Shown one piece after another: positions 10,544 through 30,119 of a stretch of 64,000 nucleotides of DNA. The position numbers and the translations under genes are program-made. The DNA is from Stenomitos frigidus ULC18 (lineage in GTDB: Bacteria; Cyanobacteriota; Cyanobacteriia; Leptolyngbyales; Leptolyngbyaceae). The number at the start of each line of letters is the position of its first letter. The stretch's first letter is position 1. The notes under the pieces were generated by a model. The model had not been told where the DNA came from and searched no databases. It was given only the letters and a program-made list of their open reading frames with translations. Where the stretch lies: positions 1 to 64,000 of the forward strand of contig NZ_PVWK01000099.1 in the NCBI RefSeq assembly GCF_003003795.1. The letters run 5' to 3'.

Positions 10544-10576
10544 TAGACCATGAAAAGGCTCAATGAAAACTGACAC

Positions 10577-10595
10577 AGAAACCGGATTTCTCAAT
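10577..10595. repeat. Dispersed repeat AGAAACCGGATTTCTCAAT
   Basis: A short inverted-repeat element, nearly identical to one at 15782, sits directly upstream of the GspE-like gene. The two copies bracket the helicase region. Confidence 0.6.
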
Positions 10596-10771
10596 CGAGG
10601 TCAGAACCAGGTTACTTGATGAAACGATCGACTCACTCATTCTGACAAGTCCAAAATCCGGTTGCTTGACATTGAGCAACTAAGGGATCTGACTTTTCAG
10701 ACTACCAGAACAACATTAAATCTAAGTAAGCGCGTGAACACGGATTCAGCAGAGTATTTTTGTAGAAAGAA

Positions 10772-11632: not shown

Positions 11633-11648
11633 TAGAGCCTAGATGACA

Positions 11649-12272: not shown

Positions 12273-12362
12273 TGCTTCTGCCGCGTCGTCTTTTTACTGT
12301 AGCGAATTACTGAGGACTTACCAAACAATTGACTAGAGTGGAAACTAAACAGGGCTTCCATT

Positions 12363-15300
12363 TCATTCCAGAATCGCACTTTTATTTAGGGCAATCAGCT
12401 TCTTAAACGCGTTGCTATCTAGCTCTGTTAACCAGGATTCATCGGCACCCACGATCGAGCCTGCCAGCTTTTTCTTATCTTCAATCATTGCGTCGATGCG
12501 TTCTTCTAGTGTCCCCATTGCCACAAATTTGTGGACGAACACATTCCGCTTTTGACCAATCCGAAACGCGCGATCGGTAGCTTGATCTTCGACTGCTGGA
12601 TTCCACCAGCGATCGAAATGAAACACATGATTCGCTTTAGTGAGCGTAATGCCCACACCACCCGCCTTCAGTGACAACACAAAAATCGACGGTTCTGTTT
12701 CGGGGTCTTGAAACTCGGTGATCATCTGCTCTCGTTTCTTACGAGATGTGCTGCCAGACAGATAGTAGGTGTTGTAGTGACAGGCTTGCCGCAGATATTT
12801 TTCTAGAGCCTGACCCAGTTCATTAAATTGAGTGAAGATCAGCATACTTTCACCTTCTTCCATCGCTTCTTCGACCATTTCACTGAGGCGGGTGAGCTTG
12901 TGCGATCGCTCTGGTGTAAAGTTGCTGCCATCCTGAAGAAACTGCATGGGATGGTTACAAACCTGTTTGAGTTTGGTCAGCGTTGCCAGGATCAGACCTT
13001 TGCGTTGAATGCCTTCTAATTCGTTAATCTTTGCTTCGACATCTTTGACCACCGCTTCGTAGAGAGAAGCCTGTTCTTTGGTGAGATTGCAAAAGAGCTT
13101 TTGCTCTACTTTATCTGGTAAGTCTTTGATGATGGATTGATCGGTTTTAACGCGCCGCAAAATAAATGGTTCCACCAGTTTTTTCAGTGTAGCGGATTGG
13201 CGTGGATCATTGTTTTTTTGAATCGGCAATTCAAAGTTACGGCGAAATTGAGTTTGATTGCCCAGATAACCCGGATTGAGAAAATTAAAGATCGACCAGA
13301 GATCCAATAAACGGTTTTCGATCGGTGTTCCTGTCAACGCTAACCGATGCGGCGCATTCAATTTCAGAATGGCTTTCGTTAGGGCAGCTTTGGGATTTTT
13401 GATGTTTTGCGCTTCATCCAGCACAATGCGATGCCATTTGATTTCATCCAACAGCTTGGCATCCAGTCTTGCTAAGGCGAAGGATGTGATCAACAAATCA
13501 TTTTCGCGGCAGGCTTGCTTGAAGGCTTTGCTCTCTTTGGCCCGTTCCGTACCGTGATGGACGATCGCCTTTAGCTGTGGTGCGAATTTTTGGATTTCGT
13601 GATGCCAGTTGCCGACCACTGAAGTTGGCGCGATCAGTAAGGTCGGTGGCAGATGAGTCTGTCCAGCTTGTTGCATCAACTCCCGCTCCTGAAGCAGTCG
13701 AGCGATGACCTGAATCGTTTTACCCAAGCCCATATCATCAGCAAGGCAGCCGTTTAAACCCAGCTGTTCCAGATAGTGCAACCAGGACACACCGCGTTTT
13801 TGATAGTCTCGCAGATTGCCCTGCAGGTGCTGGGGATTATCGACAGGTTGCAGTTGGCTCTTGTCACCCAGCTTCTCCAGCATCTCGGCTAGATTGCTAG
13901 AGCGATCGACCTGCAACTCCAGGTTCTCATCGTCGCTGGCAGTGAGCTTGAGGAAGTCCAGCAGGCTCAGTTCTGGGTTCTCTTGCTGCTGTGTTTTCCA
14001 GAACTCCAGCATTTGTCGCATTTTGGCCTGATCCAGTTCCAACCACTGTCCCCGGAACTGGACGAGAGGCGTTTTGGCGCTGACCAGTTGGTTCCATTCC
14101 TGCTCGTTGACAGGCTCGCCGCCAATCGCCAGTTCGTACTGGTACTCCACCAAACTCTCAAACGAGAAGTATTGCTTCGCCTTGTCTTCGCCACCTGTCA
14201 GCGATTTACCTTTGGCTTTGAGCCGGACTTTGGCCCGTTGCCGTCCCTGCGGTGTCCACCAGGCAGGCACGATCACCTTGTAGCCAGCATTCTCCAGCAC
14301 CCAGGCAGACTCTTTCAGAAACGTAAAGGCCGATTCCAGATCCAGCGTGATGCCAACGGGTTGATCGGTTTCCAAGCCTTGCCACAGCGCCGGATAGATG
14401 CGAGCCGCATAGCCCAAATTCATCAGCAAATGTTGTTCAAACTCCTGCCCCATTTGCTTCTGGACTTGCTTTTGCTGTGGCGATCGCATCCGCCAGTAGT
14501 CTTGCAGCGACACGCGCAGGGATGGATCGCTCTTGGGCGCAACTTGAAACTGAAGTTCCCAGGGGTCGTCTGGGTTCGCTGGATCTTGCAGCTTGAAGCA
14601 CAGGTAGAACGGTTGATCGGACTGGGTTCGCACAATGCGATCGCGCCACGCCTGCCATTGCTTGTACTCTTCCAGGCTCGTTGCTGTCGTCCAGGGCTTG
14701 CCAGGATGCAAACAACTATAGAGAAGGGAATCAAAAATGGTCTTTTCGAACGCTTGCGTGGTGGGCGTATGAGTCAGCAGATCGGTCAACAAACATTCAG
14801 AAAAGTGACGCAGAAGAGTCGCGCGATCGTAGAACTCTGGCGTCTCACGCGGTTCTGCCACACCAGCCACACAGACCAACGGCATGTAGTCCACATACTG
14901 CTGAATGGTGGCGTCGTACTCTTCACCAATGAACTCCCAGCCAGGATAGATTTCAAAGTTGCCTGTGGGTGTTGCCACCGAGACATCAATGGTTTGAGTC
15001 GCAGCCGTTTGTGTTTTTGACTTTGCCGCCGATCTCGCTGTCCGTCGAGTAGTGGTGGTGGTAGTGGCTTTAGTTCGTTTGCCAGCAGTTGCCGATGGGG
15101 AAGCGATCGCCTCATCAACTGCTTTCGTCGTGCGCTTAGTCCTGGATGCTTTCGGAGCCTCTAACTCCCGGTAGATCAGCGCGGGAATGTACTGATCTTT
15201 GAAGATGATGCGTTTAAGCGCCTGCGTGTAGTGAAACCAGAACAGCAGATCAGACCCCAGTTGAATGTCTGCCAGGTTATGCAGCGCCAGAAAGTGTAAC

Positions 15301-15704
15301 TCGTTGATCAGAGTAACAACGTTATTAACAAAGCCGCCCGTTTTGGCTGATGCCACCGTTTGATAGCAATCGATCTGCCAGTACTGCAACTCAAAGGTTT
15401 CTGGTAATTCTGCTTCTAAATAGCGAGAGAGCTCCAACGAGGGCAACGGTTGATTATCAACGGTAGGCAACAAGAAAAATTGTGGCGAAATCAAGTCCTG
15501 AAGTTTGCGGTAAGTCGGTGGTTGAATGCCTAATTCTTTAGTGAGCCACTCAGCTAAATCAGCCGCAGCAATGTGTCGCGGATGTCGCTGAGTGGGCTTC
15601 CGAGATTGCTTTCGTTCTGTCGTTTCAACCCACAGGTAGAAGGCTCCATTCTGGATAAAAGCCTCTTCCGTTTGAGGAATCCAGGTGCCGTGAAGAATTT
15701 GCAT
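12363..15704 (-). CDS. SNF2-family DEAD/DEAH-box helicase
   Basis: A 1113-residue ATP-dependent DNA translocase of the bacterial SNF2 (HepA-like) group. Order: a long N-terminal SNF2-associated region, interrupted at about 185-240 by a basic Lys/Thr/Ala-rich linker; Walker A DDMGLGKTIQ (about 655-664); DEAQ box (about 760); LTGTPIENRL; and the C-terminal helicase half with SLKAGGVGITLTKANHVFH and DQATDRAFRIGQ, which is motif VI. It heads a probable operon with Uma2 and SWIM genes. Such helicase/SWIM pairs are widespread in cyanobacteria; remodelling of transcription or replication complexes is a reasonable inference, not shown. Confidence 0.93.
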   Translation of the reverse strand: MQILHGTWIPQTEEAFIQNGAFYLWVETTERKQSRKPTQRHPRHIAAADLAEWLTKELGIQPPTYRKLQDLISPQFFLLPTVDNQPLPSLELSRYLEAELPETFELQYWQIDCYQTVASAKTGGFVNNVVTLINELHFLALHNLADIQLGSDLLFWFHYTQALKRIIFKDQYIPALIYRELEAPKASRTKRTTKAVDEAIASPSATAGKRTKATTTTTTRRTARSAAKSKTQTAATQTIDVSVATPTGNFEIYPGWEFIGEEYDATIQQYVDYMPLVCVAGVAEPRETPEFYDRATLLRHFSECLLTDLLTHTPTTQAFEKTIFDSLLYSCLHPGKPWTTATSLEEYKQWQAWRDRIVRTQSDQPFYLCFKLQDPANPDDPWELQFQVAPKSDPSLRVSLQDYWRMRSPQQKQVQKQMGQEFEQHLLMNLGYAARIYPALWQGLETDQPVGITLDLESAFTFLKESAWVLENAGYKVIVPAWWTPQGRQRAKVRLKAKGKSLTGGEDKAKQYFSFESLVEYQYELAIGGEPVNEQEWNQLVSAKTPLVQFRGQWLELDQAKMRQMLEFWKTQQQENPELSLLDFLKLTASDDENLELQVDRSSNLAEMLEKLGDKSQLQPVDNPQHLQGNLRDYQKRGVSWLHYLEQLGLNGCLADDMGLGKTIQVIARLLQERELMQQAGQTHLPPTLLIAPTSVVGNWHHEIQKFAPQLKAIVHHGTERAKESKAFKQACRENDLLITSFALARLDAKLLDEIKWHRIVLDEAQNIKNPKAALTKAILKLNAPHRLALTGTPIENRLLDLWSIFNFLNPGYLGNQTQFRRNFELPIQKNNDPRQSATLKKLVEPFILRRVKTDQSIIKDLPDKVEQKLFCNLTKEQASLYEAVVKDVEAKINELEGIQRKGLILATLTKLKQVCNHPMQFLQDGSNFTPERSHKLTRLSEMVEEAMEEGESMLIFTQFNELGQALEKYLRQACHYNTYYLSGSTSRKKREQMITEFQDPETEPSIFVLSLKAGGVGITLTKANHVFHFDRWWNPAVEDQATDRAFRIGQKRNVFVHKFVAMGTLEERIDAMIEDKKKLAGSIVGADESWLTELDSNAFKKLIALNKSAILE

Positions 15705-15781
15705 GGCCAGAACTCACTGACACGGTTACGTTTGCTTTTCAGCGTATCAGAAGTTTTGAGAAGCGCGATCGCCCAACCGCA

Positions 15782-15847
15782 AGAAACCGGGTTTCTCAAT
15801 CAATACGGTTATCTAAATGTCTCTAAGTCATCAGAATCCCGGTTTCT
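15782..15847. repeat. Dispersed inverted-repeat element with two copies of the AGAAACCGGG unit
   Basis: AGAAACCGGGTTTCT (15782-15796) and a reversed partner GAATCCCGGTTTCT (15834-15847) lie just upstream of the helicase gene. Directly after it the twelve-base unit CAGCCGGTAGAG occurs twice. The first unit also occurs at 10577. Confidence 0.6.
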
Positions 15848-15960
15848 GCGCAGCCGGTAGAGCTCCTGCTCAGCCGGTAGAGCGATCACCCCTCACCTCG
15901 CTCTGCGATCGCTCGTTATGATCAAGGCGTCGTCTTGACAATCTTCAGGAGTGAATCACT

Positions 15961-16131
15961 ATGCCTTCGATCACGATCGAGATTTCAGAAGACCAATTGC
16001 AAAAGCTACGAGCGCTGGCGCATGAACAAGGTCTATCTCCAGAAGCATTGTTGCGTGACCATCTTGAAGAGTGGCTCAGTGCTCCAAAAAGTAAGTTCGC
16101 AAGAGTCAGAGCGTCAAATTCAGAGCGTTAA
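15961..16131 (+). pseudogene. Truncated small antitoxin-like gene
   Basis: A 56-residue frame with a good Shine-Dalgarno sequence (AGGAG) starts MPSITIEISEDQLQKLRALA and continues through SPEALLRDHLEEWLSAP. This is the N-terminal part of a cyanobacterial antitoxin family that partners PIN-type toxins. From family knowledge the intact form continues with a Tyr/Leu-rich C-terminal tail; here the last 12 residues (KFARVRASNSER) do not resemble it, and no toxin gene follows. I read it as a 3'-truncated orphan. It may still make a short DNA-binding peptide. Confidence 0.55.
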
Positions 16132-16138
16132 ACACTAA

Positions 16139-16700
16139 TGTTGTCCTCCTAGCAAACCACTTGGACGCGCAAGCGACATCCTAGTCGGTGATTAGTAACC
16201 AGTTGTTAGAAAAAGCGATTCAGCCCGCCGTTGGAATCAGCTACGTAATAACGTTAAAGGTTAGTATCTTAACGGATCAGTATTTGGCAATCACGACGGA
16301 TAGATTGTGTTTTTAGCAAGTCTAATTTGCTACTTTGCTTCATCTCTTAAGCATGTCAAGCCAACCATTACAGTGCAGCAATTCCAAATCCAAAAAATCC
16401 GTGACCAGAAAATAATCACCTCTGCTTTTGAAATAGTACCCTTGTTCAAAATAATGCCGGAAATCTACATTTTTAGTTGAGCTTACTGCGTCAATTCTCA
16501 ATAAGCTGCTGGCGCAAGTCGCTGAAAGGGCTTCTTAGAGCCGAATTTGGAATTGTTGATTACAGTGTGTCTGTAGACCGAGCTAAAGGCTAAATGTTGA
16601 ACAATTAGTTTATGTGCACAAAAAATAGGACGGCCATATCTGATTTCTTTTGCATTACGTAGCCTCTCTAAAACACTGGCTAGAATGACACACTGAAGCC
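16139..16700. other. Gene-poor stretch, nothing recognised
   Basis: About 560 bases without a supported gene, more AT-rich than its surroundings. No RNA gene, terminator or repeat recognised. It probably carries the promoter of the coiled-coil membrane protein gene. Confidence 0.3.
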
Positions 16701-16721
16701 TATTTGCACTTACGTAAAGGT

Positions 16722-16898
16722 ATGAGGACTTACATTAACTTTATTCATGAATCAATTTCTTCAAGTGATGAAGAAGCCCACGCTCAAGCAGTAGCCTTAC
16801 TGGTTTTAGAAGGCTACTTTAGGGTCATGCAATGGTTTGCAGTGCAGAGATCTACCCATCGCCTTAGCTCTAAAGCTTATTGTCACATCAACTACTAG
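16722..16898 (+). CDS. Possible 58-residue hypothetical protein
   Basis: A short frame MRTYINFIHESISSSDEEAH onward ends 12 bases before the next gene. The closely spaced, same-strand position and the acidic and hydrophobic mixture make it possible, but no family is recognised and the Shine-Dalgarno sequence is weak (AAAGG very close to the ATG). It may be chance. Confidence 0.25.
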   Translation: MRTYINFIHESISSSDEEAHAQAVALLVLEGYFRVMQWFAVQRSTHRLSSKAYCHINY

Positions 16899-16910
16899 AG
16901 GGTACCTAGA

Positions 16911-17750
16911 ATGTCAGTCTCTCCACTGAAAAACCCAGTATTACCTGCTGCTGTACTTGCTAGTGCAGTGTTCTCCTCACTAACAGTGCCTCTAGCCGTC
17001 TTAGGTTCGGGGCCAGTCGATATCCAATTGAACCAGGAGCCTGTTTTCTCCGGAACCATCAAGGATTTTGCAGCACCCTACGTAGGAGTTGTCGGCATCC
17101 TGAGTATCGGAGCAGGCGTCGCTGGGGTTGCGATCGCTGGATGGCAGCAGTCATCCCGCAAATCTGGGCAAGTGGAAGCGAAACTCTCCAGCTTGCAACG
17201 AAAACTAGAAGCAAAGGAATTGCAACTCCAGGCTGCAATGCTATCAGAGCAACGACTAGAAGCATCTGGGCTAGACTTTTTTCTTGAAGATGAAACGCGA
17301 CCCGAAGCAGCACTACTAGCGACAGCGACCCCACCCAGAGTAAGTGTCACTCAAGCAAAAGCACCAGTTAATCAGACTCGCATCAGTCAGGCTCAGTCCC
17401 TTCAGCCTGCGATCGATCCAGAGCAAACTCAAGCAACAGCACAATCAGTGGTTTCTACTCTGGCTGCTGCCCAAGCCTTCTTAAGCTTTACCCGCTCTAA
17501 CGGCTCAATGTTGCCCAGCGATGACGGCCAGTTGATGGCGAAGAAATTGCCCGCTGCCAATACTAGTTTGCAAGAACTGCAAGATCAGCTTAAGCAAATC
17601 ATGTCTCAAGTGGAGACTCTCCGTTATTCGCTAGAGGCTGAACCTGTCGTCAAGCCTCAGCAGTCAACCTATACTGTCAACGCTACTGAGCATCTACATC
17701 ATCGACCAGCAGCGAAGTCACAATGGATCATGCAATCGATGGCGTCCTAA
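16911..17750 (+). CDS. Membrane protein with coiled coil, unknown function
   Basis: Not recognised as a named family. The 279-residue protein has an N-terminal hydrophobic segment that could be a signal anchor (PAAVLASAVFSSLTVPLAVLG), a second helix at about 58-80 (YVGVVGILSIGAGVAGVAIAGW), then a coiled coil at about 85-120 (VEAKLSSLQRKLEAKELQLQ) and a low-complexity Gln/Ala-rich region. A second short heptad stretch lies near the C-terminus (LQELQDQLKQIMSQVETLR). Likely plasma or thylakoid membrane protein with a soluble helical tail. Confidence 0.65.
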   Translation: MSVSPLKNPVLPAAVLASAVFSSLTVPLAVLGSGPVDIQLNQEPVFSGTIKDFAAPYVGVVGILSIGAGVAGVAIAGWQQSSRKSGQVEAKLSSLQRKLEAKELQLQAAMLSEQRLEASGLDFFLEDETRPEAALLATATPPRVSVTQAKAPVNQTRISQAQSLQPAIDPEQTQATAQSVVSTLAAAQAFLSFTRSNGSMLPSDDGQLMAKKLPAANTSLQELQDQLKQIMSQVETLRYSLEAEPVVKPQQSTYTVNATEHLHHRPAAKSQWIMQSMAS

Positions 17751-17796
17751 GCGGTTGATGAAAACGCCAAATTGTCTAAAATTTGGACTGCATGTA

Positions 17797-17833
17797 GGAG
17801 TCAGAGGGCAAGATCAGCAGTCCGCCTGACTCC
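17797..17833 (+). repeat. Hairpin with 8-bp stem after the coiled-coil protein gene
   Basis: GGAGTCAG and CTGACTCC form a perfect stem with a 21-base loop 46 bases after the stop. There is no T run, so it is only a possible terminator. Confidence 0.4.
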
Positions 17834-18097
17834 CAATCTTCTCATAGCTTGAAGATTCTATTTACCAATTGAATAAGCGTCTTCAAACCATACATTCAAG
17901 GGGATTCATCTATCTAGAGAGAAGAATGTAGTCTTTGGATAAGCCATACAACTAGGGACACACGGCGGTACACCCCTACCAAAAATAAAAATTATCGACT
18001 TTATTAAAGTGGCACTTCTTAGTGTTCAAATGCGTTTTATTTTGCCGGAGTTATAGCTGTTGTCACAAAGCTTAGGCCATTGGGATCAAAGGGGGAG

Positions 18098-18132
18098 TGG
18101 GGGCGTGCCCCCAGCCAGGGGTTCCACCCCTG
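18098..18132. repeat. Pair of GC-rich hairpins in a dispersed element
   Basis: Two adjacent palindromes, TGGGGGCGTGCCCCCA and CAGGGGTTCCACCCCTG, lie between convergent genes. They are followed by GCACCCCGTCCTAACC and an AT-rich TATGGCTATAGCTATAAC tail. The arrangement resembles an interspersed repeat and may also separate the two transcription units. Confidence 0.6.
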
Positions 18133-18197
18133 CACCCCGTCCTAACCAGTATGGCTATAGCTATAACTATTGCTGATCGTTAACGTGATTGTGATCC

Positions 18198-18953
18198 TTA
18201 ACGAAGGTGCTGCGCGAAGGATAGAGGTGCTGTGGTTTGCTTATCCTTCAACACTGGGAGATTAGCCGACGTAGCGTTAATTGGCACGTTATTCAACTCC
18301 GATCGCAGGCTCAAACCTTCGTTTAGATCATTCACATTCAAGACTAATGAAGCCGTTTTGACGATCGGTGGAGTCACTGTTAGCGTTTGTTTGGTCTGGA
18401 GATACCATTGCCCATCCGTTGCAAAGCGGATATTAGCTCCTTGCAACTGCTTGCCCTGGTTGTCTAATGGTTGTGCCAGCGCTTTGGGTTGACTGGCTGA
18501 GTCGATCGCGGCGACGAAAACAACATCAGCATCAGGTTTCAGCCGACGCATTTGAGCCTGGTTCGTTTGCCAAACTTCCTGATATTGACCGTCAGTCGTA
18601 CTTTGCCAGAGTTTGAGAGTCGCTTGCCATTGCCCCTGCGAGACCACGACTGCTTGACGATCCAAAATGGCGTAGTTAGACGGTTCGCCTGGACTGGCAG
18701 GCTGAGCAGAGGACGTCAACGGACGGATGCCTTGAACAATGATGCGACTTTGATCAGGAAGGTTTGTCTTACCTGAAACGATATAGACACCGGGACGATT
18801 AGCCGCTTCAACCTTCATATTCAACTCTGCTTGCAGCGATCGCTCCCTACTACAGCCCACAGTCAGCAGCAGTAAGAAGACACTCATGGCTTTCACGTAA
18901 GGCTGAAAAGAAGCATTACGGCAGAGGGCACGTGGCGATAGAACATTAGACAT
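18198..18953 (-). CDS. Putative lipoprotein, unknown function
   Basis: Starts at ATG 18953 rather than the longer frame's start at 19019. A signal peptide with lipobox (SVFLLLLTVGC, Cys near residue 34) predicts a lipid-anchored periplasmic protein. The mature part is about 215 residues, mostly beta-type, with GVYIVSGKTNLPDQSRIIVQGIRPL resembling surface beta-sandwich repeats and a segment rich in Gln/Thr. No known domain is recognised. It lies divergent from the first gene of the cellulose cluster across a 395-base gap, so shared regulation is possible but not shown. Confidence 0.65.
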   Translation of the reverse strand: MSNVLSPRALCRNASFQPYVKAMSVFLLLLTVGCSRERSLQAELNMKVEAANRPGVYIVSGKTNLPDQSRIIVQGIRPLTSSAQPASPGEPSNYAILDRQAVVVSQGQWQATLKLWQSTTDGQYQEVWQTNQAQMRRLKPDADVVFVAAIDSASQPKALAQPLDNQGKQLQGANIRFATDGQWYLQTKQTLTVTPPIVKTASLVLNVNDLNEGLSLRSELNNVPINATSANLPVLKDKQTTAPLSFAQHLR

Positions 18954-19019
18954 TACATATCCTTGGGTTTCAGTTGTCACCGTAGACTCTATAGCTAGGT
19001 CTCTTATTACAAGGAACAA

Positions 19020-19348: not shown

Positions 19349-21172
19349 ATGACTCTTGAGCCTTTGCAGTCTAATGTATCCACATTTCTTCCACCCTGGA
19401 AGGTTGGTTTAACAGGGTCACTGTCTCTAACTGCATTTCTAGCAGTAGGGGTGGCACAAGCCAAACCAGTGCCAGTTCACCTGCACGATCGCATAGCACA
19501 ATCCCCCCAGCAAGTCATGGCTGACGAACAAGCCAAACTTGCAGATGCGCGGATCGGCCGTCAGGAAGAACTCCAACCTCCAGCGTCTGCGATCGCAGCA
19601 AGGGCGATCGCGCCACCCCAGTCCATGCCATCCATGGAATCGTCCCGGTCTGGCTATACCAACGAAGATGAGTTAATTCAACAAATGGGTGGCAAGGCGA
19701 GAACGACCAGGGCAACACCGGCCAGGGTGCACCCAGTCAAAGTGAGACCGCCTGCTTTTTTGCCACCATCCACTCCCATAACGGCAGCGAAACAGGCAGC
19801 TCCAGCGACTAAAGCGGCACGGCAAAAGCCTTCCTTTTTGATTACGGTTGGCACCAATTCTGATCTAGGACTGAGCCTATTTGCCCCTGCGCCGAGCGAT
19901 CGCTGTAGTGGAGCCTGTGGTGGCTCGCCGCTGTTAGTGCCATCCTTGCCTCGGATGGGTGGGCGGACAATAGCGCAATCGACGCCACCGCCACCCTACA
20001 CAACGCTGCCAACACCCAGTCTGTTAGATGGCGCAGTGCCGCCTGGGTCATTAACGAATGGCACAACGCCGACGGAACCGCTGCTCTTGCCAACCACCAG
20101 CAGTCCAGCCAGCATTCAACCCCCAACCTTTCGAGCGCAGTCTGCAACAACGCCCCCAGCACGACGGACGCTCTTACGCACCACTGCCCTCAGTGACCCG
20201 TCGATCAAACTGCAAGGTGTGTACCTCTATCAAGGCGATCAATCGTCAGCAAGAGCACGCCTATCGATTTCATATCCGTTAACGCCCCATCTCCTCTTTG
20301 GCGCCACGTTTGACCTGACGGATGGCAATGCCTTTGCCGATTCGCAGACTCAGGGCTTTAGCGTGAACGAGCTGTATTTTGCGGCGTCGCTACCGGAATT
20401 GCCCAATCTTCGTTTAGTGGTTGGGCAATTGGATTTGACCTCGTATTTCGATCGCAACAGTTTTGCGAAAGATGGCGCAACTCATTTCTTCAACCCGGTA
20501 TTTCAAACCAATCCAGCACTCAGCGCTACGGGCATTGCGTCTCGCCCAGCGGCACTCGTGAACTGGACGTTGACGGACAACATTGAGGCGAAAGCAGCGG
20601 TCTTCTCATCGTCACGTAATCTAGGTGACTTTAGTTTGGATGGATTCGCTGGTGAAATTGGCATTCGCTACGGCAATGCGGTGATTCGAGGCACCTATGT
20701 CACCGATCGCGATGCCGGTTCACGCGATGGCTTTCGGGAGATTTTCCAGGTTGCCCGTGGAAACGGTGTGACAGGCTTCCTGAAGGGCGATCGCGAAGAA
20801 TCGTATGGGTTGAACGGGGAGTTCTTCATTCCGAAGCTGAAAATGGGTCTCTTCGCCCGCTATGGACGCTATAACAACGACGCGATTAATCGCAGCGCCG
20901 AAACCTATAGCCTCGGCTTCAACTTTCTGGATGTCTTCGCTCCAGACGATCGCCTGGGATTGGCGTATGGTCGTGGTCTTTCCAACGAGTCACTACGGCG
21001 TCAAATTGGCGACAAAAATCCTGACGTTCTAGAACTCTTCTACGATTTTCGCTTCTTACCAAATTTGAGGCTTGGTTTTTCCATTCAGGAGCGTAATGAC
21101 TTCTCAGAAATCATTGCAGGCGTCCGGGTGAAAACCGAATTTGATGTAACTCCTAAAGGAAAGGGGCTTTAG
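19349..21172 (+). CDS. Outer-membrane beta-barrel protein of the cellulose cluster (probable BcsC barrel half)
   Basis: A 607-residue protein with an N-terminal hydrophobic signal (VGLTGSLSLTAFLAVGVAQA), a long disordered Pro/Thr/Ala linker (about 50-275) and a C-terminal beta-barrel region. The barrel part shows alternating strands and turns like carbohydrate porins (RLVVGQLDLTSYFDRNSF, FAGEIGIRYGNAVIRGTYV, FARYGRYNNDAI). It starts a five-gene run with a TPR protein, GH8 cellulase, BcsB and BcsA. In Proteobacteria one protein, BcsC, has TPRs followed by a barrel that lets cellulose through the outer membrane; here the two parts seem to be separate genes. That role is inferred from position and architecture. 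Confidence 0.72.
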   Translation: MTLEPLQSNVSTFLPPWKVGLTGSLSLTAFLAVGVAQAKPVPVHLHDRIAQSPQQVMADEQAKLADARIGRQEELQPPASAIAARAIAPPQSMPSMESSRSGYTNEDELIQQMGGKARTTRATPARVHPVKVRPPAFLPPSTPITAAKQAAPATKAARQKPSFLITVGTNSDLGLSLFAPAPSDRCSGACGGSPLLVPSLPRMGGRTIAQSTPPPPYTTLPTPSLLDGAVPPGSLTNGTTPTEPLLLPTTSSPASIQPPTFRAQSATTPPARRTLLRTTALSDPSIKLQGVYLYQGDQSSARARLSISYPLTPHLLFGATFDLTDGNAFADSQTQGFSVNELYFAASLPELPNLRLVVGQLDLTSYFDRNSFAKDGATHFFNPVFQTNPALSATGIASRPAALVNWTLTDNIEAKAAVFSSSRNLGDFSLDGFAGEIGIRYGNAVIRGTYVTDRDAGSRDGFREIFQVARGNGVTGFLKGDREESYGLNGEFFIPKLKMGLFARYGRYNNDAINRSAETYSLGFNFLDVFAPDDRLGLAYGRGLSNESLRRQIGDKNPDVLELFYDFRFLPNLRLGFSIQERNDFSEIIAGVRVKTEFDVTPKGKGL

Positions 21173-21176
21173 GGGA

Positions 21177-21203
21177 AAGGCTAAAGGCTAAAGGCTAAAG
21201 GCT
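21177..21203 (+). repeat. Tandem AAGGCTA repeat
   Basis: Four copies of the seven-base unit AAGGCTA, the last ending in G, begin a few bases after the barrel gene stop and lead into the AACTCAAAAC-type repeat. Confidence 0.8.
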
Positions 21204-21300
21204 GAACTCAAAACTTGCCCTCACTCTGTCTGTTTCAACTCAAAACTCAAAACTTAAAACTCAAAACTTTTTATCCTTCATCCTTCATCCTTTCCCCCTC
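21204..21300 (+). repeat. Dispersed AACTCAAAAC/pyrimidine-tract repeat
   Basis: Reiterated AACTCAAAAC-like units followed by TTTTTATCCTTCATCC and a C/T tract. Related sequences occur at about 1233, 45300, 47966 and 61690. It separates the barrel gene from the TPR gene. Confidence 0.75.
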
Positions 21301-21330
21301 AATGTCGTCCTAGCCATACTGGTAAAGCCA

Positions 21331-23652
21331 ATGATTCAGGGTAGTCGAACGAAAAACTTAATCAGTGCTGTCTGTCTGGGGGGATTGCTCATCGGCGTTC
21401 CTTTAATGCAGCCGTTGGGAATGCCGATCGCGCAGGCTCAGGAAGCAGTTCCGGCGGCCGTGCGGCAGGGCTTTACCTTACTAGGGCAGGGATTGGTCAA
21501 CGATGCGATCGCGACGTTTCGGAGTGCAATTCGACAGTATCCCGGCTCAATCGAGGCAAAGCTAGGGCTGGCGATCGCCTACCGTCGCGCTGGACGTGAT
21601 GCTGACGCGTGGCAAACTTACCAGCAAGTGTTGGCACAGGAACCCAACAATCAACTGGCGCTCAAGACGATCGGCATTCTCGGCGGTTTTCGTGCGGAAT
21701 GGCAGCAGACGGGCATTGAAGCACTGACCACACTGCTCACCCTTAACCCAAATGATTTGGATACTCGTGCTCAACGTGCCTTGTTGTATGGCTATCAAGG
21801 GCAATTTGCCGACGCTCTAACCGACTATGAGCTGGTGTTACAGCGCAACCCAACGCCAGACGTGTTGCTTGGTGCAGCCCAGGTTTACACCTACAGCGGT
21901 AACTACGCTCAAGGGTTAGCACTGTTCAATCGCTATCAGTCAACCGGCAAACCAATTACAGGTAAGGCGTCGATCGCCTATACCCGTGCGTTACGAGGTA
22001 CGGGTAATGCGGCCCAAGCCATCGCCATTCTCCAGGCCCAACTGCCGCCGCAAATTAATACAACGTCTATCCAACTGCGATCGGAACTTTCGCAGGCATA
22101 CCTGGCGAATGGACAACCGACCGAAGCGCTGGCAGTGCTCGATCCCTTACGCGGTCGATCAGATGCCCGGCTGCCGTTAGCGCGTGCGCTGAATGAAATT
22201 GGGCAGCGGCAAAATCTGTCCGCGTTGCTGAGTCAGTCCGCTGACCTGTATCGGCAGGTGGTGCTTAGCACTCCCAACCCATCGCCCCTTTTGCTGCGTG
22301 AAGCAGCAGATGTGTTGAGCGGGGTTCCGACGCAGCGCCAGTCTGCACTCCAGCTATACAACCAGTTGGTGAAACTACAGCCCAACGATCGCGTGCTGTC
22401 CTTGCAGAAGCTGACGCTAGAAAACCAGCTAGGGTTACTATCCAGAGGTGATTTACACCAACAGCAGCGATCGCTATTGCAACCGCTGCCGAGCAACCCA
22501 GCCGAACAACAGGCGATCGCGCAGGCGCTATCTCGTATTGATCCTGATCCCGATCTGCTGCCCATTTATCAAAGTTTGCTGCAAGCCAAGGTCAACGAAC
22601 CGTTTCTCAACTTCCGACTGGCGCAGTTGCTCATTGAGAAGAATGACCTCAATGGAGCCAAAGCGGCATTGGTCGCTTATCAGGCAACGGCTGTGGGCGC
22701 AAATGATCAAGCCCCTCAGTTGTTGCTGGCAGAAATCGATCGTCGTCAAGGCAACCTGGACGCCGCCGCCCAGCGGTATCAAGCCCTAACCACTAACAGC
22801 AGCGCCGATCTCGACGTACAGGTAGCCGCTTTGCGTGGGTTAGCGGGCATTCGGTTAACGCAGGGTCGTCCGGGTGATGCCCTTGCCCTTTATGAGCAGC
22901 TTTTGGCAAAAAATCCCCAGGACTTGCAGGTGCAGTTAGGGCGTACCAGTGTGGCGTATCAGGCCGGGCGAGTTTCCGCGACTGAAGCTGAAGCCGCTCT
23001 CAATGCCTGGCTGCAAGCGCATTCTCCAGGCGATACACCACCCGAACTTTACAGCCTGGTGGGTGCGTTGCCAGCAGCGCCGCAGCGAGAAGCGCTCTAC
23101 ACCAAGCTCATCGAAGCAAACCCCAGCAATGTGCAGGTGCAGGTACGGTTGGTGCAAGTACTGGCACAGCGTGATCCCAATCTGGCGCAGGCGCAGGTAA
23201 ATCGATTGCTGGCTCGTGTGCGATCGACGGCATCGGACGATCGTAACAACGTCGGGCTGTACTTTTTGCAAGGACAACTCGCACAAGCATTAGGCAACCT
23301 GACTCAGGCGGATGCTGCCTATCAAGCCATTCTGGCGCAGCAACCAGAGAATGCCGATGCCTTAGCAGCCCTGGGTGGCATTCACTTTCAGCAACGCCGC
23401 TTTGACTCTGCCAGCAGTCTCTATAGTCAGGTGCTGACCTTTCGCCCCGATGATCTTGAAGCTCGGAAATCGTTGGCAGAGCTAGCCGCTGCACAAGGTA
23501 ACTCCTTAGAAGCCATGCAACAGTTTGAGCAGCTTCAACTGCAACAAGCCGCAACGGGTAGTGCAGACCCCAACCTATCGCGTCGGATGCAACAAATTCA
23601 GGAAGACTTTCTCAAACAACGAGGTTTTCAGCCTGCTTGGGAGCGCTATTGA
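21331..23652 (+). CDS. Periplasmic TPR protein of the cellulose cluster (probable BcsC TPR half)
   Basis: A cleavable signal peptide (CLGGLLIGVPLMQPLGMPIAQA) is followed by about 740 residues made almost wholly of tetratricopeptide repeats, for instance AIATFRSAIRQYPGSIEAKL, ALTDYELVLQRNPTPDVLL and ALALYEQLLAKNPQDLQVQL. It ends soon after the last TPR (FEQLQLQQAATG) and carries no beta-barrel. In BcsC of Proteobacteria such a TPR superhelix spans the periplasm and the barrel follows on the same chain; here the barrel is the preceding gene. Its predicted job is to link the inner-membrane synthase to the outer-membrane pore. Confidence 0.82.
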   Translation: MIQGSRTKNLISAVCLGGLLIGVPLMQPLGMPIAQAQEAVPAAVRQGFTLLGQGLVNDAIATFRSAIRQYPGSIEAKLGLAIAYRRAGRDADAWQTYQQVLAQEPNNQLALKTIGILGGFRAEWQQTGIEALTTLLTLNPNDLDTRAQRALLYGYQGQFADALTDYELVLQRNPTPDVLLGAAQVYTYSGNYAQGLALFNRYQSTGKPITGKASIAYTRALRGTGNAAQAIAILQAQLPPQINTTSIQLRSELSQAYLANGQPTEALAVLDPLRGRSDARLPLARALNEIGQRQNLSALLSQSADLYRQVVLSTPNPSPLLLREAADVLSGVPTQRQSALQLYNQLVKLQPNDRVLSLQKLTLENQLGLLSRGDLHQQQRSLLQPLPSNPAEQQAIAQALSRIDPDPDLLPIYQSLLQAKVNEPFLNFRLAQLLIEKNDLNGAKAALVAYQATAVGANDQAPQLLLAEIDRRQGNLDAAAQRYQALTTNSSADLDVQVAALRGLAGIRLTQGRPGDALALYEQLLAKNPQDLQVQLGRTSVAYQAGRVSATEAEAALNAWLQAHSPGDTPPELYSLVGALPAAPQREALYTKLIEANPSNVQVQVRLVQVLAQRDPNLAQAQVNRLLARVRSTASDDRNNVGLYFLQGQLAQALGNLTQADAAYQAILAQQPENADALAALGGIHFQQRRFDSASSLYSQVLTFRPDDLEARKSLAELAAAQGNSLEAMQQFEQLQLQQAATGSADPNLSRRMQQIQEDFLKQRGFQPAWERY

Positions 23653-23752
23653 CAGCCAGCCTCTGACACTCACCCCATGCCATCCAGGCAGTCATCAAAC
23701 CAGCAGTTTTTGCGGTGCAGCAAGCGAACATTACTTTAAAAATCTACCTACC

Positions 23753-25054
23753 ATGCGGCTGAATTTCACCATGCCATTGGTCATTGTGACGCTAATACTC
23801 TTATCTGGACTGATTAGCGGTTGCCGTGGTGGTACACAGTCGCAAGCTGAGAATGTACCGTCTCCTGTCAATTCGACCAGCCCGATCGCCTCGATTCAAG
23901 TCACTCCAAACCTGATCACTCCAAGCCCGATCGCTCAATCACCGTCTCCCGCACCACCTGTTGACATGGCGTTGCTCAAGCAAAGCTGGGCAGCCTACCG
24001 TCAGCGCTTTATCCAGGCAGATGGGCGAGTGATTGATTGGGAAGCAGACGCTCGCTCAACCTCAGAGGGACAGGCGTATGCCATGCTGCGATCGGTCATG
24101 ATCGATGACCCTCAAACGTTTGCTCTGACGCTTGCCTGGGCAGAAAAGAATCTGAAACGTGGCAATCAGCCTTCAGAGGCGCTGTGGGCATGGAAATGGG
24201 GACGTAATGCGAAAAAACAGTGGGGTATTCTCGATCGCAACTTTGCCAGTGATGCAGACATTGATGCGATTACAGCGCTGATTTTGGCAGGTCGCCGCTG
24301 GAATCGATCGGCTTACCTCACCCTGGCTCAAACGAAACTACGAGCGTTGTGGGCGCTGTCAGTCGTGCCTGTTGGGAAGCAGCCTTATCTCCTACCCGGG
24401 CCACGCGAGGCGTTTCAGCAGCCAAACAAGCTGTTGCTCAATCCGTCCTATCTTTCACCCGCGGCCTTCCGTCTGTTCGCGCAGGTCGATCGCGCCCACG
24501 ATTGGTTGAGTTTAGTCAGTAGCAGCTATCAGTTACTGGAGCGGTCGGCAGCGCTTTCGACCATCCAGTTACCCAGTGATTGGCTGGCGCTGGATACAGA
24601 AACCGCACAGTTTCAACCGCTTTTAGGAGCAGAGCCGCTTGTCAGCCGCTACGGCTTTGATGCCTATCGCGTGTGGTGGCGACTTGCCCTGGATGCGTCC
24701 TGGTATGGCGAACCGAGAGCCAGAAGCTACTTGCAGCAGCGTTTGGTTTCGTTGCAGGAGCTGTGGCGATCGCAGCAAACCATTCCGGCCCAGATCGATC
24801 TGCAAGGCAAGCCTGTAGTCGCCTATGAAGCGTCCTCTCAATATGGCGTGCTTTATGCCGCTTTTCGCCTGATTGATCCAAAGACGGCTGAAGAAATCTA
24901 TCAGAAGAAAATAGCGCCCCAGTATCGCAACGGTATTTGGGATAACAGCTCTGCTTACTACACCCAAAATTTAGTCTGGTTTGGATTGATACCCTCAACC
25001 GCTATTTCAACTCAGCTCCTGCACCCTGCCAACGTTAGCCCTACCCATCCATGA
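23753..25054 (+). CDS. bcsZ: Glycosyl hydrolase family 8 cellulase, lipoprotein (BcsZ)
   Basis: Endo-beta-1,4-glucanase that trims or edits nascent cellulose in the periplasm. The frame is open from 23525 but would overlap the TPR gene; ATG 23753 gives a proper lipoprotein signal (VIVTLILLSGLISGC, lipobox ending at Cys23). The GH8 acid is the Glu in TSEGQAYAM (about residue 105). The segment SRYGFDAYRVWW (about 300) is the other conserved block and carries the likely Asp. The protein is 433 residues, a little longer than E. coli BcsZ because of the lipid-anchored Pro/Ser linker. The stop overlaps the bcsB start by four bases (ATGA). Confidence 0.9.
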   Translation: MRLNFTMPLVIVTLILLSGLISGCRGGTQSQAENVPSPVNSTSPIASIQVTPNLITPSPIAQSPSPAPPVDMALLKQSWAAYRQRFIQADGRVIDWEADARSTSEGQAYAMLRSVMIDDPQTFALTLAWAEKNLKRGNQPSEALWAWKWGRNAKKQWGILDRNFASDADIDAITALILAGRRWNRSAYLTLAQTKLRALWALSVVPVGKQPYLLPGPREAFQQPNKLLLNPSYLSPAAFRLFAQVDRAHDWLSLVSSSYQLLERSAALSTIQLPSDWLALDTETAQFQPLLGAEPLVSRYGFDAYRVWWRLALDASWYGEPRARSYLQQRLVSLQELWRSQQTIPAQIDLQGKPVVAYEASSQYGVLYAAFRLIDPKTAEEIYQKKIAPQYRNGIWDNSSAYYTQNLVWFGLIPSTAISTQLLHPANVSPTHP

Positions 25055-27552
25055 AACGCTTTTTTCACCAGCTTCGACAGTTCGCTCGATCGCCCGGTCA
25101 TCGTCTCAACCCAAGGCCCCTGGGTTGGTTACTGCTGCTCTGTTGTAGCGTTTTTATGACTGGCCTTGGCATCCCGCTATTGCATGGACAATGGGCAGAA
25201 CCGGTGGTCGCTCAGTCTACCAATGTCCAAAAGCAGGAAGATCAAGTCATTCGGAACTTCACGCTGCCTAAAGCACCGAGCGACGCCCCTGTCTATCGTC
25301 CCGCGCCTCCTGTAGAAGACGTCCCGGCTCCGTCAGTCCCGGAACCAGTAACATCGACCCCAGCACCAGCAAAACCTGAGCCCGCCAAAGCAGAGGCAAA
25401 GCCCAGCAGCACCCCAACGAAGAAAACGCCAGCCAGCCAGTACGTTTTGGAGTTTAACCGGAGCCCGATCGTGGGTAACCGTCTCCGGCTGCAAGGGGTT
25501 TATGCTGAAAGCCAACTGGCCTTTACTCGTCCTCGCAATTGGAACCTGCAGTCAGCAAAGGCACTCATTCGCTTTCAGCACTCTCCTGCACTCCTGGCGA
25601 GCCGATCGAACTTAACGGTGCGTGTGAATGGCACCAGCGTTGGCAGCACGTCACTGAATCGCAAGCAGTCCCAAATTGGTCAGGTTCTAGTCGATATTCC
25701 GACCAGCCTGATTCAGGATACGAACGACATTGTGATCGTCGCGCAGCAGAATACCGACTCTAAATGCTCTAACCCAGCCGACCCAGCGCTTTGGACAGAA
25801 GTGCTTCCCGACTCCAAGCTGCTGTTTAACTACCAGCCTCAAGCCGTACCGCTGGATCTAAGCCGCTTCCCTTATCCCTTCTTCGATCACCTGAGTCTGG
25901 ATGCCAATCGGTTAGCGTATGTACGCCCCACAACAGTGAGCGAGTCCTGGCTCACCGCAGCCGGACGGTTTCAAACCGCGATGGGGCGACTGGCCGATTT
26001 TCGTCCGTTGAGCACTCGCTTTGTGAAGACGGTTGATGATTTGCAGTGGAACGATCGCCTGGTCATTCTGGGTACACCTGCCGAGCAACCACTTTTAAAA
26101 ACGCTCAAGCTTCCGTTCACTGTCTCTGGCAATCAAATCATCGACGGCTCGAAAAATGCGCTTCCGGCGGATGTAGGCGTGTTAATGCTGGCAGCAACGC
26201 CCAAAGGCGGCAATCCCATTCTGGTCGTCACAGGCAACGGCCCCGATGGCGTGGCGAAAGCGGCACAGTTTCTTGTGCAGCCCCAAAACCGCCGCATTGG
26301 TGCGGGACAAGCCGTTCTGGTCGATAATCTGGATGATGTCCCCACTCCACCCACACGGCAATGGGAACGGGCACTACCAGATGCAAATGAATTTAAGCTG
26401 AGTGCCTTAAAGGGATCGGATCAGGAGCCACTCAAAGACACAACCGTGCGGGGTGCGTCGGCACCCTCTGTAGAGTTCAACTTTCATGCCCTCCCCGATG
26501 ACCACTTTACGCGGGGCAGTGCGATGGAGCTGGTCTACAGCTACAGCCCCCAGGTGAATCCCAGAACGTCGGCGATCGAAGTGCTGTTAGACGGCGTTGT
26601 CGTTGGCGGCAAGCGGCTGACCTCAGAAACAGGTGCCAGCAGAGAATCGGTCAACGTGAATCTGCCTGAGAACTTGATCACGCCGACCTCTAAGCTGGCG
26701 ATCGCGTTTCGCCTGAGTGCCCGCGAACAAGCGCAGTGCGGTGTTGTCACCGATCAGCAACTTTGGGGCACCGTCCATGCCGACGAGACGAGGTTTAAGC
26801 TGAAGCGCGATCAATCCGTGCAGTTACCGGATCTGAAGCTGCTCCAGGTGGGGTATCCCTTTGCTGCACCACAGGATTTGTCGGGTACGGCGATTGTCGT
26901 ACCAGATTCACCCTCCGAAACGGAACTGCTGACGATGCTGGCCTTCAGCGAACGCATGGGACGTCTGAGTCAGGCAGAATCGGTGAAGCTGGGTGTTTAC
27001 ACGACAGGAACCTTGCCCGACGACGTCCGCAGGCAACGCCATCTGGTAGGCATCGGCACCCGCGATAAGTTTCCTTTTAATGAAGCCTTTGATACCAAGC
27101 AAGGGTTCAGCTTAGGTGGCGCATTTTCTCGCCTATGGCACCAGCAAACCATCCAGACGTTGCCCGATAAAGGTGGGGTCATTAAAGAAGTGATCTCGCC
27201 CTGGAACGACAAGCGCACCGTACTGGCACTCAGTGGTCAGCAGGCAAGCGGTCTAAGCACAGTGAAAGACGTGTTGAATCAAGATCCCTGGTTCTTTCAA
27301 GTCAAAGGGGATACGGTGCTGATTAGCGCCAATGCTCAAGCCACCTCTATGTTTGACTCTGACGCCTATCAGCTGGAATCGTTGCAGCAAGAACCGCAAC
27401 GTCGGCTCGCACAGACCAATCTGCTCGCAACGACATCCCGCTTTCTTCAAGACAATTGGTTCTTGCTGCCAGCGGGCATGGTGACGGTATGCCTGTTGCT
27501 CTATGGCATTGCTCAGCTGTACATTAAACGCCTTGAGGGAGAGAAAAGATGA
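25051..27552 (+). CDS. bcsB: Cellulose synthase regulatory/guide subunit BcsB
   Basis: Periplasmic partner of BcsA that holds the catalytic subunit and guides the glucan through the periplasm. The 833-residue protein has a signal peptide (WLLLLCCSVFMTGLGIPLLHG), a Pro/Ala linker, two repeated carbohydrate-binding-like/ferredoxin-like units (one beginning near LEFNRSPIVGNRLRLQGV, another near EFNFHALPDDHFTRGSAMEL), and the family's single C-terminal anchor (PAGMVTVCLLLYGIAQLYI, about 807-825). The gene overlaps its neighbours on both sides by four bases, so bcsZ, bcsB and bcsA are translationally coupled. Confidence 0.92.
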   Translation: MKRFFHQLRQFARSPGHRLNPRPLGWLLLLCCSVFMTGLGIPLLHGQWAEPVVAQSTNVQKQEDQVIRNFTLPKAPSDAPVYRPAPPVEDVPAPSVPEPVTSTPAPAKPEPAKAEAKPSSTPTKKTPASQYVLEFNRSPIVGNRLRLQGVYAESQLAFTRPRNWNLQSAKALIRFQHSPALLASRSNLTVRVNGTSVGSTSLNRKQSQIGQVLVDIPTSLIQDTNDIVIVAQQNTDSKCSNPADPALWTEVLPDSKLLFNYQPQAVPLDLSRFPYPFFDHLSLDANRLAYVRPTTVSESWLTAAGRFQTAMGRLADFRPLSTRFVKTVDDLQWNDRLVILGTPAEQPLLKTLKLPFTVSGNQIIDGSKNALPADVGVLMLAATPKGGNPILVVTGNGPDGVAKAAQFLVQPQNRRIGAGQAVLVDNLDDVPTPPTRQWERALPDANEFKLSALKGSDQEPLKDTTVRGASAPSVEFNFHALPDDHFTRGSAMELVYSYSPQVNPRTSAIEVLLDGVVVGGKRLTSETGASRESVNVNLPENLITPTSKLAIAFRLSAREQAQCGVVTDQQLWGTVHADETRFKLKRDQSVQLPDLKLLQVGYPFAAPQDLSGTAIVVPDSPSETELLTMLAFSERMGRLSQAESVKLGVYTTGTLPDDVRRQRHLVGIGTRDKFPFNEAFDTKQGFSLGGAFSRLWHQQTIQTLPDKGGVIKEVISPWNDKRTVLALSGQQASGLSTVKDVLNQDPWFFQVKGDTVLISANAQATSMFDSDAYQLESLQQEPQRRLAQTNLLATTSRFLQDNWFLLPAGMVTVCLLLYGIAQLYIKRLEGEKR

Positions 27553-30119
27553 CGAATCCAGCGGCTGAAGTGCAATCTGAGCGTCGTCGAGGGAAAGCAG
27601 AGCGGCTGACAATCTGGCTTACGGAGTCGCTCCCCAATGGGTTCGATCGCGTCTTTCGCTATGCCCCCAACGTCCAGTTGTTCTGGCTAGCAATACTGCT
27701 ACTGCTGCTATCCATCCCACTGATCATTACCCCGTTGACCACCTGGCAGCAGACGATCGCAGCCTTGATGCTCATTCTATTGGGCTGGGCGATCGTGCAG
27801 ATTGAGCAACGGTATGGCGATCGCCACACTAGCGAATACCTGCATTTATTTATGGTGTGGCTCAGCCTGCTCACCACGTTCCGCTACGTCTATTACCGCA
27901 GCAGCTATACGCTCAACCTGGATGGATGGCTCGATGGCACGTTTAGTATCTTGCTGTTTGGGGCAGAGCTCTACGCCATCATGACGCTGGCGCTCGCTTT
28001 TTTTCAGACGCTGAAGCTGAAAGATCGACAGCCGCCCAGTCTGGCAGGGATTCCAGAGCAACAGTTGCCGACAGTCGATGTCTACATCCCGACCTACAAC
28101 GAGGATGTAGAGATTGTGCGTAAAACGGCACTGGGGGCACTGGCGATCGACTATCCCGCCAACAAAAAGCGCGTTTACATCCTGGATGATGGTCGAGCAG
28201 AGAAGTACCGGGCACGTCGAGAAGCATTGCGTCAGATGTGTGCCGAACTCGGTTGCACGCTGATGACGCGGGACAATAATGACCATGCGAAAGCAGGCAA
28301 CATCAATACCGCCATGCGCAAGACGTACGGCGATTTGATCCTGATCCTGGACTGCGACCACATCCCAACGCGAGACTTTTTACAAAATACGATCGGCTTT
28401 TTCCGCAATCCTAAAGTGGCACTGGTGCAAACCCCTCACTGGTTCTACAATCCCGACCCGTTTGAGCGCAACTTGCTGACGGCTGGTAAAGTGCCAGTGG
28501 GCAACGAGTTGTTCTACAAGGTGCTGCAAAAGGGTAATGACTTTTGGAATGCGGCATTCTTCTGTGGTTCGGCGGCGGTCATCCGCAAAGATTACGTGCT
28601 GCAAATTGGCGGCATTGCTACCGAGACGGTCACGGAGGACTGTCACACATCGTTTCGCCTGCATTCGTTGGGCTACGAGTCGGTCTACTACGACAAGATA
28701 ATGGTGGCAGGGCTGGCACCGGAAAAATTCTCCGCCTATGTGGGACAGCAGGTGCGTTGGGCACGGGGGATGGCGCAAATTCTGCGGCTTGAAAATCCCT
28801 TGCTCAATCCCCGTCTGCGGTTGAGCATTCCTCAACGGCTGTGTTACTTCAGCGCGACCTCTCACTTTTTCTACGGCTTTCCGCGCTTGATGTACGCGAT
28901 CGCCCCCACCCTTTTCCTCCTCTTCGGTATCAATCCCATTCGTGGTTTGGGTCTGGAAACGCTGGCGTATGCGATGCCGCACATCTTCCTGTCTACTTAC
29001 GCCAACCACATCACGTATAAAAATGTCCGCTTTTCCTTCTGGAACGAGATCTACGAATTTGCGATGTCCTTCCAGGCAGGGCTGGTAACGCTGCTGGCGT
29101 TGATTAACCCCAAACTCGGTAGCTTTAATGTGACCGATAAGGGCGCATCCGTTACCAAGCGGAGCTTTGACTGGCAGTCTGCTCGTGCGCTGGTGATCGT
29201 GACGGTGCTGGTTGGGCTGTCGGTGCTGGCTGTCCCGCTATGGCTGATCTTGCGACCAGAAGATACGGAAGCGGTGCTCACCAATATGTTCTGGTGCTTT
29301 TTTAATCTGGTGCTGCTGATTTCAGCGCTGCTAGTTGCTTTCGAGCAACCCCAGCTACGACGGGCACATCGGCTCGATCGCAAGTTGGGCACCATCATCT
29401 ACAGCCAGGGACAAGAGTGGCGGGGGCAAACCATCAACGTCAGTGAAACGGGCTGTCAACTGCTGTTGGATAGCTGGCTGAACCTACCCGATGAAATTGA
29501 GCTGGAGTTAATTGGCGATTACGGCACGCGTGCGTTTGTGAATGGTCGCATTATCCGGGTCACGCTGATCAACGAAACCCAGGTGGTAATGGCGATCGAC
29601 TTTCTGGAACCCAGCCGCGCCCAACTGGATGCCCTCAGCCTGGTCATCTATTCTGATGTCCGGGAATGGTACTCCCAAACGCGCGGCATCGTCGATGACC
29701 CGATGGAATCGTTCAAGTTCATTATGACCAGCGTGTCGCGATCGTTCCGGGAACCAAAACCTGCACCCCCTACGCCATCGATACGCAAACAGATCCGAGC
29801 CATGGCACAACTGTATTGGGAAGGACAGTTCTATACGGCGATCGCGACCGAAATTGGGGTTCGCAGCCTCAAGCTAGAGCTAGACGGCACTGCTATTCAA
29901 AACCTGGAGGCAATGGAGCGGACAAAAGCGCTCGTCGGGCTACTCCTGAGTCAGACCGACAGTGACGCGTTACCAAAACGCTTGTTGGCTCAGGTACAAA
30001 CCATCGAAACCGTTAGCGATGCGTCGGGCAGCAAAATCGCGATCGAAGTCAGCTTTCCAGAGCACTTGCGCGATCGACAGGGTGGCAAAATCAAGGAACT
30101 GGTCGAGACGTTGAATTAG
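27549..30119 (+). CDS. bcsA: Cellulose synthase catalytic subunit BcsA with PilZ domain
   Basis: Inner-membrane GT2 enzyme that polymerises UDP-glucose to cellulose and extrudes it. Three N-terminal helices are followed by the catalytic domain: DDG (about 213), DCD (about 268), FFCGSAAV, TED (about 363) and QQVRW (about 400-404), then five membrane helices. A C-terminal PilZ domain carries the c-di-GMP motif RRAHR (about 603-607) and NVSETG (about 630-635), so activation by c-di-GMP is expected. The 856-residue length, full motif set and bcsB neighbour make this a proteobacterial-type synthase. Remnants of this gene's 3' end recur at 30942 and 31661. Confidence 0.96.
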   Translation: MTNPAAEVQSERRRGKAERLTIWLTESLPNGFDRVFRYAPNVQLFWLAILLLLLSIPLIITPLTTWQQTIAALMLILLGWAIVQIEQRYGDRHTSEYLHLFMVWLSLLTTFRYVYYRSSYTLNLDGWLDGTFSILLFGAELYAIMTLALAFFQTLKLKDRQPPSLAGIPEQQLPTVDVYIPTYNEDVEIVRKTALGALAIDYPANKKRVYILDDGRAEKYRARREALRQMCAELGCTLMTRDNNDHAKAGNINTAMRKTYGDLILILDCDHIPTRDFLQNTIGFFRNPKVALVQTPHWFYNPDPFERNLLTAGKVPVGNELFYKVLQKGNDFWNAAFFCGSAAVIRKDYVLQIGGIATETVTEDCHTSFRLHSLGYESVYYDKIMVAGLAPEKFSAYVGQQVRWARGMAQILRLENPLLNPRLRLSIPQRLCYFSATSHFFYGFPRLMYAIAPTLFLLFGINPIRGLGLETLAYAMPHIFLSTYANHITYKNVRFSFWNEIYEFAMSFQAGLVTLLALINPKLGSFNVTDKGASVTKRSFDWQSARALVIVTVLVGLSVLAVPLWLILRPEDTEAVLTNMFWCFFNLVLLISALLVAFEQPQLRRAHRLDRKLGTIIYSQGQEWRGQTINVSETGCQLLLDSWLNLPDEIELELIGDYGTRAFVNGRIIRVTLINETQVVMAIDFLEPSRAQLDALSLVIYSDVREWYSQTRGIVDDPMESFKFIMTSVSRSFREPKPAPPTPSIRKQIRAMAQLYWEGQFYTAIATEIGVRSLKLELDGTAIQNLEAMERTKALVGLLLSQTDSDALPKRLLAQVQTIETVSDASGSKIAIEVSFPEHLRDRQGGKIKELVETLN

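Follow-up and report, generated by a model that had tools for sequence, protein, structure and literature searches.

A conserved cyanobacterial Bcs cluster with an OprB-type barrel and a separate TPR protein as its probable outer-membrane step

In many cyanobacteria, a c-di-GMP-responsive Bcs cluster probably carries out the outer-membrane step of cellulose secretion with two proteins, a barrel and a TPR scaffold. With somewhat less assurance, we lean toward a further reading: an OprB-type porin may have been recruited as a dedicated cellulose exporter, along with a free TPR scaffold and two additional proteins (UP1 and UP2), defining a separate Bcs class that occurs in filamentous and other cyanobacteria and is not among the operon types of the open literature. 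We describe this cluster from a window of 64,000 nucleotides (the whole stretch of DNA analyzed), positions 1 to 64,000 of contig NZ_PVWK01000099.1 of Stenomitos frigidus ULC18.

Five genes succeed one another on the plus strand of the window, and an ORF check confirmed the order given in a first-pass annotation: the barrel protein (BAR, 19349..21172, 607 aa), the TPR protein (21331..23652, 773 aa), a BcsZ-like GH8 endoglucanase (23753..25054), BcsB (25051..27552) and BcsA (27549..30119). The ATGA overlaps noted there among the last three genes are present at the GH8/BcsB and BcsB/BcsA junctions, and the reversed gene order is the exact mirror image of the E. coli order bcsA-bcsB-bcsZ-bcsC. 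That gene list held for all five genes but overlooked two conserved upstream neighbors: UP1 (18198..19019, minus strand), divergent to the barrel gene and encoding a predicted lipoprotein with an invariant Cys after a hydrophobic stretch, and UP2 (16911..17750, plus strand), whose 279-aa product has membrane segments at its N-terminus and a coiled-coil C-terminus. The GH8 start is most likely the ATG at 23753 (433 aa, lipobox LISGC), not the upstream TTG at 23525 within the TPR gene. Promoter and terminator scans of the locus gave no more matches than shuffled sequences, and we therefore left operon boundaries uncalled. A bacterial sugar transferase (PF02397) is also encoded upstream of the cluster, at window positions 4744-5460, and is possibly another exopolysaccharide gene.

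The synthase core is of the Bcs type known from Proteobacteria, and the BcsZ, BcsB and BcsA motifs previously described as clear are matched by family assignments. BcsA, a GT2 cellulose synthase, matches TIGR03030 (CelA) at 6e-210 and carries a PilZ (c-di-GMP) domain; in one search its score falls 0.2 bits short of the TIGR03030 equivalog cut-off, and in another it passes. It retains the D, D, TED, QxxRW signature as DDG, DCD, TED and QQVRW, as well as the PilZ motif RRAHR...NVSETG. BcsB, the periplasmic synthase subunit with a C-terminal TM helix, matches its family at 3.5e-101. BcsZ, a predicted lipoprotein, matches GH8 at 5e-41 and retains its catalytic Glu and Asp (equivalents of E55 and D243). 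Within the aligned parts, BcsA shares 39% identity with its E. coli K-12 counterpart, BcsB 25% and BcsZ 31%. Family searches of the locus returned no HlyD or BcsC match among the cluster proteins; likewise, no HlyD/TolC gene and no polymer-modification enzyme such as BcsG was recognized in the cluster. The same genome encodes two further BcsA-like synthases (G000:C61:623-2614 and G000:C35:45602-47209), well below the CelA cut-off and with no adjoining BcsB, which are possibly other cyanobacterial (XcsA-type) synthases.

The barrel protein opens with about 270 residues made up of a signal peptide and a Pro-rich linker of variable length (~240 aa), followed by the predicted barrel (residues ~285-600). 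OprB (PF04966) is the sole family matched (1.7e-10, 41.3 bits, for a curated cut-off of 22.9); there is no SLH domain, and NCBIfam holds no model for this protein. At E<=1, PF04966 is matched by 6 of 17 barrel-family members (the window protein and 5 of 16 relatives), while none of the 17 matches BcsC_C (PF05420) or, at the same threshold, Alginate_exp (PF13372). Profile comparison with hhalign gives E = 2e-4 to the OprB porins of the same genome versus 0.18 to the E. coli BcsC barrel. A structure model of the region after the first ~270 residues, built from 46 sequences, shows 16 predicted strands with a mean pLDDT of 88.5. Its best structural match by Foldseek and VIA-align is OprB of Pseudomonas putida (4gey; Z 27.4, rmsd 2.9 over 301 residues), followed by OprP (Z 23.7); BcsC is absent among the 50 structural matches listed for the model, which does not show that the two differ. 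Both its sequence and its predicted structure place the barrel in the OprB porin type. In porins, strands 5 and 6 are joined by the constriction loop L3. Here the corresponding loop (20435..20539, plus strand; LTSYFDRNSFAKDGATHFFNPVFQTNPALSATGIA), predicted to be long, is more conserved than any other part of the family, with 19 of its 35 residues invariant over 46 sequences.

In the TPR protein, a signal peptide precedes a TPR array that closes with the strongly conserved segment RGFQPxW (FQPxW in 75 of 79 sequences). Family searches find nothing but TPR in this protein and nothing but OprB in its neighbor, in line with the original observation that each lacks the domain of the other. The TPR protein scores 124 bits against PrsT and 43 bits against BcsC; since general TPR families score higher, the comparison with BcsC is uninformative. 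No fused TPR-barrel ORF occurs among 97 loci, and in 45 of 74 adjacent pairs the barrel stop and the TPR start overlap by 4 bp. In the window, a 158-bp gap (21173-21330) holding short repeats of the GGCTAAA and AACTCAAAACTTA type takes the place of the overlap seen in most relatives.

On the Allocoleopsis franciscana plasmid pMIC7113.02 (L170, 510-15320), BAR-TPR lies on the strand opposite BcsB-BcsA, with UP1 in between, and the barrel is annotated only as a hypothetical protein. The 4-bp overlap is kept despite this inversion, which indicates that the pair behaves as a unit. It seems that barrel and TPR genes move together and that the cluster can be plasmid-borne.

To survey its distribution, we searched 386 cyanobacterial genomes for BcsB: 22 matched, 17 of them with a full-length match. 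Barrel, TPR and UP1 profiles were built from the loci surrounding BcsB and run over the same 386 genomes. Each was found in the identical 16 genomes, all with a full-length BcsB; the genomes counted span seven families, although they are not independent in phylogenetic terms. The other 370 genomes gave no barrel, TPR or UP1 match, save three barrel trace matches near 1e-7 in small genomes. The barrel is therefore no common porin occurring without bcs genes. None of the 16 genomes encodes a BcsC_C protein above the cut-off; weak BcsC_C matches in ORFs of 385-487 aa (G338, G005, G167 and G060) all fall below it.

A scan of 84,980 species returned 203 barrel relatives, of which the 80 highest-ranking come from Leptolyngbya, Tildeniella, Stenomitos, Myxacorys, Nostoc, Calothrix, Scytonema, Brasilonema, Rivularia, Symploca and others. 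The order BAR-TPR-(GH8)-BcsB-BcsA recurs around BcsB genes, and synteny over 97 loci besides the window makes chance irrelevant as a source of the arrangement. For 66 named-genome loci that extend 8.5 kb or more downstream, we counted TPR in 65, BcsB in 65, BcsA in 65 (BcsB and BcsA together in 65 of 66) and GH8 in 62, and clusters without GH8 still keep BAR-TPR. The TPR gene is thus linked to bcs, and the placement of barrel and TPR on two polypeptides is conserved and specific to bcs loci.

Within the S. frigidus genome, the barrel model matches two genes alone, both of them located in bcs clusters, and leaves all other OprB-family genes unmatched. The second cluster (L057, G000:C9:8001-28000, at 8790-18211) reads BAR-TPR-BcsB-BcsA, with no GH8. 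The distances of BAR, TPR, BcsB and BcsA are strongly correlated across 77 loci (r 0.89-0.96). Three genomes with two clusters were checked: in two (L047/L049 and window/L057) the four proteins of each cluster share their nearest relatives, whereas L059/L067, from the third genome, agree less closely.

Some loci depart from the common organization. Two clusters appear to be decaying: one (L133:9596-15837) lacks a TPR gene and has a broken BcsA, and the other (L131:8108-14217) keeps UP1-barrel-TPR and has lost BcsB and BcsA. The 17th genome with a full-length BcsB (G343), from another class of the phylum, has two tandem BcsB genes with no adjoining barrel or synthase and, elsewhere, a 1454-aa ORF with a BcsC_C match (G343 coordinates: L051 / G343:C1:1151476-1155824; G343:C1:262256-262960).

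UP1 and UP2 belong to the cluster as conserved genes: among named loci whose upstream sequence spans 3.5 kb or more, UP1 is present in 62 of 69 and UP2 in 49 of 69. Against Pfam, UP1 gives only scattered sub-threshold matches and UP2 no convincing match. The UP1 model (pLDDT 79, moderate confidence) was assigned, with low confidence, an immunoglobulin-like beta-sandwich; the Ig-like matches returned by a fold search are all weak (Z 7.7 at best) and may reflect no more than a common arrangement. An unlinked UP1 paralog lies on contig C147 of the same genome.

Secreted cellulose needs an exit, no BcsC above the cut-off is present in the 16 genomes, and we recognized no linked outer-membrane channel other than the barrel. 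The barrel is therefore likely the cellulose channel and the TPR protein its scaffold, in agreement with their linkage and co-inheritance with the synthase genes. In the mechanism that we propose, BcsA, responding to c-di-GMP through PilZ, would polymerize the glucan and BcsB would take it up in the periplasm. The TPR protein would span the periplasm and dock on the 16-strand OprB-type barrel, perhaps via its conserved C-terminal motif; the barrel would let the chain out and BcsZ would trim it. UP1, as a lipoprotein, and UP2, as a membrane/coiled-coil protein, may be additional subunits. Two points count against the barrel as glucan channel. The OprB porins characterized in other systems take up sugars via a constricted pore, and the L3 loop predicted for the present family is long and conserved. 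Furthermore, genome G011 has one TPR-BcsB-BcsA locus without an adjoining barrel, though a barrel is present elsewhere in the genome.

Sugar uptake by other OprB family members also underlies the main rival explanation: the barrel may import cello-oligosaccharides or glucose produced by BcsZ, and cellulose would leave by another path such as TolC, as in the XcsA-HlyD-TolC tripartite route proposed for other cyanobacterial cellulose (PMC12430437). However, the barrel is kept in clusters without GH8 and is coupled to TPR, by the frequent 4-bp overlap, and to BcsB, which it tracks rather than GH8 or cellulose synthases generally. These observations weaken the uptake hypothesis, as does the lack of a recognized HlyD/TolC gene in the cluster, and we regard it as unlikely. 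Coming back to export through the barrel, we may also hypothesize that the polymer is a modified or mixed-linkage glucan to which the barrel is suited. Such a polymer might account for two extra proteins of no known family and for a BcsA that is 39% identical to its E. coli counterpart and borderline at the TIGR03030 cut-off; yet the retention of all cellulose synthase catalytic motifs and GH8 cellulase residues, and the lack of a BcsG-like enzyme in the cluster, make this quite improbable.

The first-pass annotation had seen here what seemed to be a single BcsC divided in two, and descent of both halves from one ancestral bcsC that broke and changed its order is highly doubtful: the same two functions do lie in the same cluster, the predicted strand number equals the 16 reported for the BcsC barrel, and the TPR model matches E. 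coli BcsC in a weak and general way, but BcsC_C is missing from all 17 barrels, profile and structural comparisons both favor OprB, no fused ORF is seen in any of the loci, and the barrel gene precedes the TPR gene. Replacement of BcsC by an OprB-type barrel and a free TPR protein, or independent assembly of the export step, looks like a better fit, and we reject "split BcsC" as a name because it implies a line of descent for which the data give no support.

The route by which cyanobacterial cellulose passes the outer membrane is not settled, and the cluster supplies a concrete exporter candidate. Maeda (2018) is said to have addressed tripartite secretion in T. vulcanus. A phylum survey from 2015 found the BcsC_C domain in no cyanobacterium and BcsB in very few (PMC4594306), and a 2025 review describes cyanobacterial operons without BcsB and a TolC route that is proposed and unproven (PMC12430437). 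We found no description of the barrel and TPR bcs arrangement in the open literature, to which our search was confined, so that novelty is provisional. The cluster is present in many sheath-forming and terrestrial genera, and two further gene families, UP1 and UP2, come with it. If our reading is correct, a different porin family can serve to rebuild the outer-membrane step of synthase-dependent secretion.

Among known systems, the E. coli bcsA-B-Z-C cluster similarly unites BcsA with PilZ, BcsB, GH8 BcsZ and TPR and barrel functions. Here the order is reversed, TPR and barrel genes are separate, the barrel is OprB-type instead of BcsC_C, and UP1 and UP2 are added. The barrel and TPR genes share with bcsC their location beside bcsA and bcsB; they share neither its BcsC_C domain nor its single polypeptide. 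OprB carbohydrate porins and cyanobacterial SLH-OprB porins resemble the barrel in their PF04966 match and offer its closest predicted fold, whereas the barrel has no SLH domain, has a long Pro-rich linker and its own strongly conserved L3, and was only found with bcs genes. In Komagataeibacter, OprB is discussed only for sugar uptake (PMC6528568). The proposed XcsA-XcsB(HlyD)-TolC system also has a PilZ-bearing synthase in cyanobacteria, but it combines an HlyD-like protein with TolC and has no BcsB, in contrast to the BcsB, TPR protein and OprB barrel found here without any HlyD match. In alginate export, a TPR scaffold, the lipoprotein AlgK, and an outer-membrane barrel, AlgE, are separate proteins from separate genes, as they are here. 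Differences are the type I signal of our TPR protein, a barrel with 16 predicted strands that is not Alginate_exp, and a cellulose-type polymer. BcsC has been described as combining the functions of AlgK and AlgE (PMC4594306); by analogy, the barrel and TPR layout looks like that of AlgE/AlgK rather than a BcsC cut in two.
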